Shown piece by piece: positions 12,452-39,519 of a DNA stretch of 64,000 bases. A program made the translations under genes and the position numbers. Position 1 is the stretch's first letter. Each line of letters begins with the position of its first letter. The stretch is from an uncultured Hyphomicrobiaceae bacterium (GTDB lineage: Bacteria > Pseudomonadota > Alphaproteobacteria > Rhizobiales > CALHAX01). The notes beneath the pieces were generated by a model. The model was not told where the DNA came from. It searched no databases and worked only from the letters and a program-made list of their open reading frames with translations. The stretch lies in the NCBI GenBank assembly GCA_937931785.1, contig CALHAX010000001.1, forward strand, positions 1-64,000. Direction: 5' to 3'.

Positions 12452-12486
12452 GGGCCGGTCAATCGACCGGCCCTGTTTGTTTTTTA
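12452..12486 (+). terminator. Rho-independent terminator after the L,D-transpeptidase gene
   Basis: GGGCCGGTC-aatc-GACCGGCCC followed by TGTTTGTTTTTT. Confidence 0.9.
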
Positions 12487-12879
12487 ATCTCCAATATAGG
12501 CAATGGCTTCAATCTCGACCAGCATGAGCGGATCGCTGAGGCGCGTTTGCACGGTTGTACGGGCTGGCGGATCGTTCGGGAAAACCTTTGCAAATTCCTC
12601 GTTCATGATCTGGAAGTCGTCGATGTCTTTCAGGTAGACATTGCATTTCAAAACATCGTCCAGCGTCGCGCCAGCTTCCTCGAGTACTGCACGGACATTT
12701 TTCAACGTTTGCACTGTCTGGGCACGCACATCACCAGGTGCACCTACTTCGCCCGTTTCATTCCAGCCGACCTGACCTGCTGTGTAGATCATGTTGCCGC
12801 CGCGCGTGCCTGGAGAATACGGAAATGTCGGGCGCGGCTGAAAGTCCAGTGACTTGGGGCGAATGGTCTGGCGTGGCAT
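12484..12879 (-). CDS. RidA/YjgF/YER057c/UK114 family protein
   Basis: MPRQTIRPKSLDFQPRPTFPYSPGTRGGNMIYTAGQVGWNETGEV...NVYLKDIDDFQIMNEEFAKVFPNDPPARTTVQ. Confidence 0.9.
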   Translation of the reverse strand: MPRQTIRPKSLDFQPRPTFPYSPGTRGGNMIYTAGQVGWNETGEVGAPGDVRAQTVQTLKNVRAVLEEAGATLDDVLKCNVYLKDIDDFQIMNEEFAKVFPNDPPARTTVQTRLSDPLMLVEIEAIAYIGD

Positions 12880-12918
12880 GATGTCGAACCTTCTCATGGC
12901 AATAATGATGGGATCAGT

Positions 12919-13368
12919 ATGGATATTGAAGACAGGGTCGCCAGCGAAATCTCGTCTTTGCACAAAGATCTTGCGCATTGGCTTTCCGGTCGGGTGGCGT
13001 GTGATCCAAAATTTTTTCGCACCGCATTCCGCAACCGGTTCCACGTTGCGTTCTATAACGTTCAACCTGCTGGGCTTGTCTTGTCGCGTACAGACCTGCT
13101 CCACGGCCTCGACTCCGGCTATGGTGCCAGCCCGAACTTCGACATTTGCATTCGCAATGTACGCGTTCGCCAGGTCGTGAGTGCAGACGAGTTCATTCTG
13201 GCCACCTACGAAGAATACCAGCGCGGAGCTCGCAACTCTGATCGCCCCATGAATGCGCGCCTTTCAACTGTCTTGTTCGAACAGCAAGATAGTGCACTGA
13301 TCTGGCACGCCATTCATGAAACTTGGTTGCCGGACGAAAATCACGATCCTGCATATTTTGTATTCTGA
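12919..13368 (+). CDS. Hypothetical protein, possibly NTF2/SnoaL-like (DUF4440 type)
   Basis: 149 aa ORF divergent from ridA; composition and pattern (ILATYEEYQRG...LSTVLFEQQDSALIWHAIHETWL) resemble DUF4440 proteins; weak assignment. Confidence 0.55.
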   Translation: MDIEDRVASEISSLHKDLAHWLSGRVACDPKFFRTAFRNRFHVAFYNVQPAGLVLSRTDLLHGLDSGYGASPNFDICIRNVRVRQVVSADEFILATYEEYQRGARNSDRPMNARLSTVLFEQQDSALIWHAIHETWLPDENHDPAYFVF

Positions 13369-13420
13369 ATGTCGCTAGCGCGCCACAACATCATCTCAGG
13401 CCGCGCGTGTATCAACCGGG

Positions 13421-13672
13421 AACGCAAGCAAGAGCAAAGTTCTGCAGAGCCACGAGAGCCGTGCCCGCGTTAAGATCCCTGGGTCCCTACGTAGTAGGTG
13501 GGTGCCGAGTGAAAGGGACCACGGTCCCAACCAGGGTCAGCTCCCTGATAGATCTTATAGGCCCCGGGAAATGTTGCGTGTCACGCGCACCACAGCCCTG
13601 CAGAAGGTTGAATGTAGGGTGCTTCGGTGTGGATTACCACTGCGGCACGCACGCTTGAGCAGCGCTTGCGTT
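13421..13672. ncRNA. Candidate structured RNA upstream of gapA (strand unresolved)
   Basis: Nested complementary segments: AACGCAAGC(13421-13429)/GCTTGCGTT(13664-13672); TCTGCAG(13441-13447)/CTGCAGA(13598-13604); GTGC-cc-GCGT(13461-13470)/ACGCGCAC(13583-13590); TAAGATC(13471-13477)/GATCTTA(13551-13557); CCTGG(13478-13482)/CCAGG(13531-13535); GTCCCT(13483-13488)/AGGGAC(13514-13519). Confidence 0.45.
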
Positions 13673-13836
13673 AAGATGAACGTGCAAAGTGTGGGCCGTG
13701 GCACCTGCAGCACTGGAAATCGCCCGCAAGGTGCGCTATCGCCACACCATCACCAGTTCGGCCCGGTCAGCACCCGTCTCGAGAGGCGGCACCACGCCCG
13801 CGGCCCTTTTCTCACACGACGTCAGGAGAGCACGCG

Positions 13837-14850
13837 ATGGCCACGAAGGTTGGGATTTCAGGTTTTGGACGGATCGGACGCAACGTTCTGCGTGCCTATG
13901 CGGAAAGTGGGCGGACCGATCTCGAATTCGTCGCCATTAACGACATCGCACCCAACGAAACGCTGGCGCACATGTTCCGCTACGACAGCACGCACGGTGT
14001 CTACGGCAAGGACGTGACGCTCGACGGCGATATGCTCGACATCGGGCTGAACACCGGGCCAGTCAAGATCTTCGCCGAGCGCAACCCGTCGGATCTGCCC
14101 TGGGGCGATCTGGGCGTGGATGTCGTGATGGAATGCACGGGCATTTTCACGGACGCTCCGAAAGCGCAGGCCCATATCGATGCCGGCGCCAAACGCGTGC
14201 TCGTCTCCGCACCATCGAAAGGTGCCGACGCGACGATCGTGTATGGCGTGAACAGCGACGGGCTGAAAGCCGATCACAAGATCATCTCGAATGCATCCTG
14301 CACGACGAACTGTCTCGCGCCAATTGCTCAGGTCCTGCACGAGCTCTGCGGCATCGAGCGTGGCTTCATGACCACGATCCACGCTTACACGTCGGACCAG
14401 CGCATCCTTGACGCGCCACATTCCGACATGCGCCGTGCCCGTTCGGCGGCTGTGTCCATGATCCCGACATCGACGGGGGCCGCCAAAGCCGTCGGTCTCG
14501 TGCTGCCGGAACTTGACGGCAAGCTCGACGGCACCTCGATCCGCGTGCCGACCCAGAATGTGTCCGTGGTCGATCTGAAAGTTGTCGCAAGCCGTGCCGT
14601 GACGCCGGATGAAGTCAACGCAGCCATGGAGAAGGCAGCCAACGGTCCGCTCAAGGGTGTCCTCGGGATCGCGAAGGAACCGCTTGTTTCGATCGACTTC
14701 AACCACAACCCGAATTCATCCACCCTGGACTGGGACAACACACAAGTCGTCGACGGCACGCTGGTCCGTGTTCTGAGCTGGTACGACAACGAGTGGGGGT
14801 TCTCCAACCGCATGCTCGACACGGCCGTGAAGGTTGGCGGTCTGGGGTGA
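13837..14850 (+). CDS. gapA: Type I glyceraldehyde-3-phosphate dehydrogenase
   Basis: 337 aa; [12 protein letters not shown]; active site [28 protein letters not shown]. Confidence 0.97.
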
Positions 14851-36869: not shown

Positions 36870-36926
36870 CGCGCTTGTCCTCGCGTTGTTCCATTTGATG
36901 TGCGCGTCGGGACCTGCTACCACACG

Positions 36927-37020
36927 GCGTCCTTGGGGAGCCGCAAGGCTGAGAGGCGACGCACAGTACGTGCCGAGCAAACCCATTGAACCTGATCCGG
37001 ATAACGCTGGCGAAGGGAAG
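36927..37020 (+). promoter_or_regulatory. TPP riboswitch (THI element)
   Basis: GGGGAGCCGCAAGGCTGAGAGG...ACCCATTGAACCTGATCCGGATAACGCTGGCGAAGGGA matches the Thi-box consensus; directly upstream of a thiamine-precursor ABC transporter. Confidence 0.96.
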
Positions 37021-37028
37021 GGAAATCC

Positions 37029-38000
37029 ATGCCACAAAACCACGATTCTGTAATCAAGCACGCGTGCGCAACACTCATATTGACGTTTGCGCTCATCATA
37101 TCATCACCAGTCCATGCGGCTGACAAGATGACGCTCATTCTGGATTGGTTCGTCAATCCGGACCACGGTCCGATCATCGTGGCCAAGGAGAAGGGTTACT
37201 TCAAGGACGAGGGGCTTGACGTTGAAATTATCGCGCCGGCAAACCCGACCGATCCACCGAAGATGGTTGCAGCAGGCAATGCGGATCTTGCGGTGTCCTA
37301 TCAACCGCAACTTCATCTCCAGGTCCATGAAGGACTGCCATTGAAACGCGTCGGAACGCTTGTCGCGACGCCATTGAGTTGTCTTCTGGTGCTCAAGGAT
37401 GGCCCCATTCAGAAGATTGCGGATCTCAAGGGAAAGAAAATTGGCTTCTCTGTAGCGGGTGTGGAAGAGGCGTTACTCACAACAATCCTGAAGAAGCATG
37501 GCCTCACGCTGAAGGACATCGAACTGGTCAACGTGAACTGGTCTTTGTCGCCTTCACTCATGTCGAAGCAGGTGTCTGCCGTCATAGGTGCCTACCGCAA
37601 TTTCGAGTTGAACCAGATGGACATCGAAGGCGTCCCGGGCCGGTGCTTCTACATCGAGGAAGAGGGGCTTCCGGCCTACGATGAGCTGATTTATGTCGCC
37701 AATGCCAAGACAATGGACAAGGCAAAGATCGCCCGTTTCCTTTCGGCAACCGAGAAAGCCACGCAGTACATCGTCAACCATCCGACCGAGAGCTGGAAAA
37801 TTTTCTCCGGCACGAAGAAGGAATTGCAGGACGAACTGAACAAGCGTGCGTGGCGTGATACGATTCCTCGTTTTGCACTCCGCCCATCCGCACTGGATGT
37901 TGGCCGTTACAAGCGGTTCGAACAGTTTCTGAAAGACGGAGGTCTCGTACCATCCATCAATCCTGTATCCAAAATGGCCGTTGACGTTACGGCGGAATGA
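37029..38000 (+). CDS. thiY: ABC transporter substrate-binding protein, HMP/thiamine-precursor (NMT1/THI5-like)
   Basis: Signal peptide then DKMTLILDWFVNPDHGPIIVAKEKGYFKDEGLDVEIIAPANPTDPPKMVAAGNADLAVSYQPQ; riboswitch upstream. Confidence 0.9.
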   Translation: MPQNHDSVIKHACATLILTFALIISSPVHAADKMTLILDWFVNPDHGPIIVAKEKGYFKDEGLDVEIIAPANPTDPPKMVAAGNADLAVSYQPQLHLQVHEGLPLKRVGTLVATPLSCLLVLKDGPIQKIADLKGKKIGFSVAGVEEALLTTILKKHGLTLKDIELVNVNWSLSPSLMSKQVSAVIGAYRNFELNQMDIEGVPGRCFYIEEEGLPAYDELIYVANAKTMDKAKIARFLSATEKATQYIVNHPTESWKIFSGTKKELQDELNKRAWRDTIPRFALRPSALDVGRYKRFEQFLKDGGLVPSINPVSKMAVDVTAE

Positions 38001-38773
38001 ACGACGCGGAGCAACACAATGAAACCGGGCAGGGAGAATGGTGCGCGACCATCACCCTGTCCGGTCGTTTTGCGCACGAGCATGTGACGCTGTTTGACGA
38101 TCTGACGTTCACTATCGCACAGGGGCAATGGACGTGTTTGCTCGGACCATCGGGGGTCGGTAAGACCACACTTCTGCGCCTGATCGCAGACCTGCCGACC
38201 GGCGGGCAGTTCTCGGGAACAATCACGACAAGCAACGCGTGTTCACTTGAGGGGCGGATCGCCTACATGGCGCAGTCCGATTTGCTGGCGCCCTGGCTCT
38301 CCGTCCGTGACAACGTGCTGATCGGTGCGCGACTGAGAGACCAGACCCTGGACACGCAACGGGCCAATCATCTGATTGAGCAGGTCGGTTTGACCGAACA
38401 CGTCACCAAACGTCCGAGCGAACTCTCCGGGGGAATGCGCCAGCGCGTGGCCCTTGCCCGGACCTTGATGGAAGATCGCCCGATCGCGCTTCTCGATGAA
38501 CCGTTCTCGGCACTGGATGCGCGCACACGGGCCGAAATGCAGGAACTGACGTTTGAACTTCTTCGAGGCCATACAGTTCTGCTCGTCACGCACGATCCTG
38601 GTGAGGCTGTCCGGCTTGGCCACACCATCACTGTGATGACGGAAGCGGGTTTGCAGGAATTTATTCCCCCATCCGCACCACCCGTGCGTGCGCATGACAA
38701 CGCGGACGCGATGCAGGCGCAAGTCGAACTCATGAACGTTCTGCGTTCACCGGAGGCGTCATGCGTCGCCTGA
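37997..38773 (+). CDS. thiZ: ABC transporter ATP-binding protein
   Basis: Walker A LLGPSGVGKTTLLR; signature LSGGMRQRVALARTL; Walker B IALLDEPFSALD. Confidence 0.9.
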   Translation: MNDAEQHNETGQGEWCATITLSGRFAHEHVTLFDDLTFTIAQGQWTCLLGPSGVGKTTLLRLIADLPTGGQFSGTITTSNACSLEGRIAYMAQSDLLAPWLSVRDNVLIGARLRDQTLDTQRANHLIEQVGLTEHVTKRPSELSGGMRQRVALARTLMEDRPIALLDEPFSALDARTRAEMQELTFELLRGHTVLLVTHDPGEAVRLGHTITVMTEAGLQEFIPPSAPPVRAHDNADAMQAQVELMNVLRSPEASCVA

Positions 38774-39519
38774 TCGATGGTTGTGCCGCCTTCGCCATTG
38801 CTGTGGCGATCTGGCAGGGCATCGTCTGGTTTACTGGTGTTCCTGCGTTCATTCTGCCGGGACCGGCCCGTGTTGCACAGTCGTTAGCGGATAACGCAGG
38901 GCTCATTCTCGATCACGCCGGTATCACCATTCTGGAGGTCATGGTCGGGTTGGTGATTGGTGCGTTGCTTGGCGGAGCGACTGCGCTTCATCTCGTGATT
39001 TCACCGCGCGCGCGTCGCGTTTTCCTGCCTGTCATGGTGTTCAGCCAGGCCGTGCCGGTGTTTGCCCTGGCCCCGATCCTGACGCTCTGGTTGGGTTACG
39101 GTATTTGGTCCAAGATCGTCATGACGATCCTGATTATCTATTTCCCGGTTGCGTCAACATTCTTTGATGGCCTTAACCGCACAGACCGTGGTTTGCTGGA
39201 CCTTGGGCGCACGATGAACGCGACGCCACTTCAACTCCTTCTGCAAATACGACTGCCTGCGGCCCTGCCGTCTTTTGCGTCCGGACTGCGTCTGGCCGCA
39301 GTTTATGCCCCCATAGGGGCCGTGATCGGAGAGTGGGTCGGTTCGTCGAACGGGCTGGGATACTTGATGTTGCTCGCAAACGGTCGTGCCAAAACCGATC
39401 TTATGTTTGCATCCCTGTTCGTGCTGGCGTTCTTTACCGTGCTGCTCTACGGCGCGATCTCCATCGTCGCAGCGCGCGTCACGGCGTGGGCGACAGGGGA
39501 GTCCGTGCCTCGTGAATAG
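38761..39519 (+). CDS. thiX: ABC transporter permease
   Basis: BPD_transp_1-like; GAVIGEWVGSSNGLGYLMLLANGR. Confidence 0.9.
   Translation: MRRLIDGCAAFAIAVAIWQGIVWFTGVPAFILPGPARVAQSLADNAGLILDHAGITILEVMVGLVIGALLGGATALHLVISPRARRVFLPVMVFSQAVPVFALAPILTLWLGYGIWSKIVMTILIIYFPVASTFFDGLNRTDRGLLDLGRTMNATPLQLLLQIRLPAALPSFASGLRLAAVYAPIGAVIGEWVGSSNGLGYLMLLANGRAKTDLMFASLFVLAFFTVLLYGAISIVAARVTAWATGESVPRE

Follow-up and report, generated by a model that had tools for sequence, protein, structure and literature searches.

A 6S RNA gene in the gap upstream of gapA

What does the gap upstream of gapA encode, and on which strand? For the 64,000-nt stretch of DNA analysed here (the window), a preliminary description had placed a structured RNA of ~250 nt (13421-13672) in this gap, had offered 6S RNA as one possibility and had called for an Rfam scan of both strands. 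Scanning the whole window gave a sole Rfam match in this region: RF00013 (6S RNA) at 13601-13443 of the minus strand (159 nt), with nothing on the plus strand. The match spans positions 1-187 of the 187 in the model, with an E-value of 8.6e-14 for the whole window, and its covariance-model score of 78.5 bits lies above the curated gathering score of 46.4, which bears out the 6S suggestion. A permissive Rfam scan of 13300-13800 matched no family other than 6S.

The 3.66-Mb genome contains only one 6S copy, and among 61 genomes from its order, itself included, 55 have an RF00013 match over the cut-off. Because the family match is joined by a covarying fold, by the lack of a second copy, by a promoter-like site that relatives share and by a position upstream of gap that recurs in many alphaproteobacteria, we infer that the locus is the single 6S (SsrS) gene of a Rhizobiales-related alphaproteobacterium, encoded on the minus strand and divergent from gapA; we put the probability of this reading at roughly 97%. 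The RNA is a standard representative of a known family and, as such, holds little surprise. Features of the locus are listed in Table 1.

Table 1. Features of the 6S RNA locus, with coordinates as positions in the window.
Feature	Position	Strand	Evidence
6S / SsrS RNA	13443..13601	-	RF00013, 78.5 bits; lineage model R1; fold
Closing stem, 5' side	13562..13601	-	MFE fold; covariation
Closing stem, 3' side	13444..13483	-	MFE fold; covariation
Central bubble, 5' strand (ccUAUAAGAUCUAUCa region), 16 nt	13546..13561	-	Unpaired in MFE fold
Small hairpin CCUACuacGUAGG, 3' strand of central bubble	13486..13498	-	MFE fold
Apical stem and terminal loop	13500..13545	-	MFE fold; covariation
Likely 6S promoter, GTGGTA (13640-13635)-n17-CTACAT (13617-13612)	13612..13640	-	Comparison with relatives
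gapA (glyceraldehyde-3-phosphate dehydrogenase)	13837..14850	+	PF02800, PF00044

The fold is conserved among relatives

The 159-nt sequence has a minimum free energy (MFE) of -65.0 kcal/mol. Its MFE fold, together with covariation across 30 sequences, displays a closing stem, a large central bubble and an apical stem with a terminal loop, which are among the canonical 6S parts listed, for example, in PMC8414754. The 5' strand of the bubble (13546-13561) aligns with an unpaired stretch of the Rfam consensus. Opposite it lies a hairpin, CCUAC-uac-GUAGG (13498-13486), of a kind that is common but not universal in 6S RNAs, and the CACCCACCUA that precedes this hairpin is near-invariant in the alignment of relatives.

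Conservation of the pairs was assessed on an alignment of 30 6S sequences from the order, with the structure derived by RNAalifold. Half of the resulting 46 pairs (23/46) carry compensatory changes, as do 14 of the 21 pairs in the closing-stem helix and 7 of the 16 apical pairs; helices 4 and 5, in the apical part, are 100% and 92.9% paired across the 30 sequences. Paired cells amounted to 93.0%, compared with 83.4% in shuffled alignments and 41-51% with slid partners, a control that is biased in the structure's favour because the structure comes from this very alignment. Compensatory cells numbered 112, against a shuffled mean of 33.5, and none of 500 shuffles matched any of the five observed measures. 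The compensatory changes are thus far from chance.

The RNA shares with RF00013 the full-length match, closing stem, central bubble, apical stem and single copy. It differs in length, with ~159 nt compared with 187 model positions, and its apical part is shorter. Lengths in the same order range from 153 to 163 nt (30 loci used), with an apical part that is likewise short. The hairpin on the 3' side of the bubble has a counterpart in sra56, the 6S RNA of Sinorhizobium meliloti, and has been described for alphaproteobacterial 6S RNA (PMC2245857).

Boundaries of the RNA

The proposed ~250-nt RNA had been described as a rod closed by a perfect 9-bp pair, 13421-13429/13664-13672. These arms (AACGCAAGC/GCTTGCGTT) are indeed present in the letters. 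Perfect 9-bp inverted pairs occur, however, in ~14% of 252-nt stretches of the window, and 18 of them have arms 200-234 nt apart within the 64 kb. In the corresponding flanks of 29 relatives, the longest complementary run averages 5.7 nt, compared with 5.1 nt after shuffling. The outer arm falls 5' of the promoter, the pair is unconserved and pairs of this kind are frequent by chance; we therefore rejected it as a closing helix: it is a chance inverted repeat outside the 6S RNA. What stands of the earlier proposal is that a conserved rod-like RNA exists; its extent is ~160 nt (13601-13443, minus strand). The fold can be extended by ~2 bp per end, and therefore the transcript may span ~13604 to ~13441.

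The stretch had also been described as covered by no good ORF. Two plus-strand ORFs, 13323-13658 and 13502-14017, do overlap it, but neither has a Pfam match, and we rejected a coding reading. A further ORF of 149 aa without a Pfam match (12919-13368, plus strand) closely follows the 3' end of the 6S gene, in the opposite orientation, and overlaps a RidA-like ORF at the start of its long version (12484-13104, minus strand). The RidA gene probably starts later than this long version, because the RidA domain lies in its second half.

A promoter-like site conserved just upstream

Just 5' of the RNA, the upstream regions of relatives have two boxes in common, one CTGGC-like and one CCTATATT-like, and 26 more loci agree. 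In the window, GTGGTA and CTACAT occupy the same place as this conserved pair, which suggests that GTGGTA-n17-CTACAT is likely the 6S promoter, although its predicted -35 is weak. A simple scan of 13300-13900 returned neither a consensus sigma-70 promoter nor a T-rich terminator, so the promoter assignment is purely comparative. The published S. meliloti 6S gene likewise lacks a U-run terminator and departs from the canonical -35; its predicted promoter, CTgGtG-n17-CTATAT (PMC2245857), is close in form to the GTGGTA-n17-CTACAT predicted here.

A different promoter had been suggested earlier, formed by GTGACA (13584-13579) and TATAAG (13559-13554) on the minus strand. The letters and the 19-nt spacing are as described, but both motifs lie inside the 6S RNA, GTGACA at RNA positions 18-23 in the closing stem and TATAAG at positions 43-48 in the central bubble. 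They were therefore rejected as a promoter, the conserved promoter-like site being ~30 nt farther upstream on the minus strand.

Genomic neighbourhood of 6S and gapA

gapA is the only match to the Gp_dh_C domain in the genome. Its nearest named relative, from a Methyloligella metagenome assembly, is 70% identical, and other GAPDH relatives are mostly from Rhizobiales and Rhodobacterales. The gapA start codon and the 5' end of the 6S match are 236 nt apart, with the genes divergent. Among 80 alphaproteobacterial GAPDH loci, 26 had a 6S RNA within 4 kb upstream of gap; it was divergent in all 26 and mostly ~3 kb away, with zapA and tkt in between in most relatives. One Bradyrhizobium locus, for instance, reads 5-formyltetrahydrofolate cyclo-ligase, 6S, ZapA, a short ORF, transketolase, gap and phosphoglycerate kinase (order read from ORFs, names given by eye from translations).

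In the genome studied here, contig 79 (23000-26149) carries transketolase and phosphoglycerate kinase next to each other, and gap is missing from between the two. The usual tkt-gap-pgk cluster is thus broken up, and gap is still beside 6S. The cyclo-ligase is on contig 12. ZapA usually adjoins 6S in Alphaproteobacteria. A profile search for ZapA (PF05164) found no match in this genome (99% complete), and its ZapA may be absent or diverged beyond the profile. With tkt, pgk and the cyclo-ligase elsewhere and no ZapA detected, a mere 236 nt separate the 6S match from the gapA start codon. sra56 of S. meliloti is located between Y03975 and Y03976 (PMC2245857), the latter of the ZapA family; here, unlike in S. 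meliloti, the upstream neighbour of 6S is gapA itself. In an early comparison, sra56 was reported to show no synteny (PMC2245857).

The short distance between 6S and gapA is the only unusual point of the locus and may be without consequence. Loss of the spacer genes could have brought the two promoters face to face, within 236 nt, and so let transcription of one gene influence that of the other, which we regard as a long shot. If true, the arrangement would tie a growth-phase regulator to glycolysis in cis, via the lineage's only GAPDH gene.

Alternative readings of the locus

A structured RNA of ~250 nt could instead be read from the plus strand, for example as a long gapA leader or a riboswitch. 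The stretch does lie upstream of gapA, and over its 252 nt it folds better than shuffles on the plus strand (z = -2.50); the minus strand does so as well (z = -2.56), and a plus-strand fold is expected as the complement of a rod. These z-scores by themselves select neither a strand nor a boundary. The strands separate with the lineage model R1, built from the 30 6S sequences, the window's own among them, which scored 140.2 bits on the minus strand of the window and 29.8 bits on the plus strand, where Rfam had no match either. The outer arms are not conserved, and in most relatives the RNA lies ~3 kb from gap behind zapA and tkt, so it is not a gap leader. On strand scores and position in relatives we rejected the plus-strand reading, to which we give almost no credence.

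The weak -35 and the missing neighbour genes might also suggest a degenerate 6S gene that has lost transcription or polymerase binding. Such decay is very improbable: the closing stem, bubble, bubble hairpin and apical stem are all kept, the score is as high as that of relatives' copies, and this is the sole copy in the genome.

Another RNA element in the window

A TPP riboswitch (RF00059) was found at 36924-37035 on the plus strand, scoring 58.0 bits where the gathering score is 54.3. Directly 3' of it, at 37029-39519, the ORFs were named by eye as the substrate-binding protein, ATPase and permease of a ThiY/NMT1-type ABC transporter, and the whole reads as an ordinary thiamine-precursor uptake operon.

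Proposed function and implications

6S is a widespread, abundant small RNA of bacteria that rises in stationary phase and keeps RNA polymerase in check as growth slows; it binds the main-sigma holoenzyme and is freed once its bubble has served as template for a short product RNA. By analogy with its family, the RNA at 13601-13443 would accumulate on slowing growth. The long duplex and its central bubble would mimic an open promoter, and the RNA would hold RNA polymerase in its main-sigma holoenzyme form. Once nucleotides are available again, the enzyme would copy a short product RNA from the bubble and so be released. We take the predicted start of this product to be at ~13557, from likeness to E. 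coli U44; GCCUAU presumably aligns with the product-RNA start region of the E. coli sequence.

An apparently unannotated gap beside gapA is thus the home of what appears to be a standard global regulator. Many alphaproteobacteria have 6S in divergent orientation upstream of gap, from which zapA and tkt usually separate it, and this position is an aid for finding weak 6S candidates in Alphaproteobacteria.
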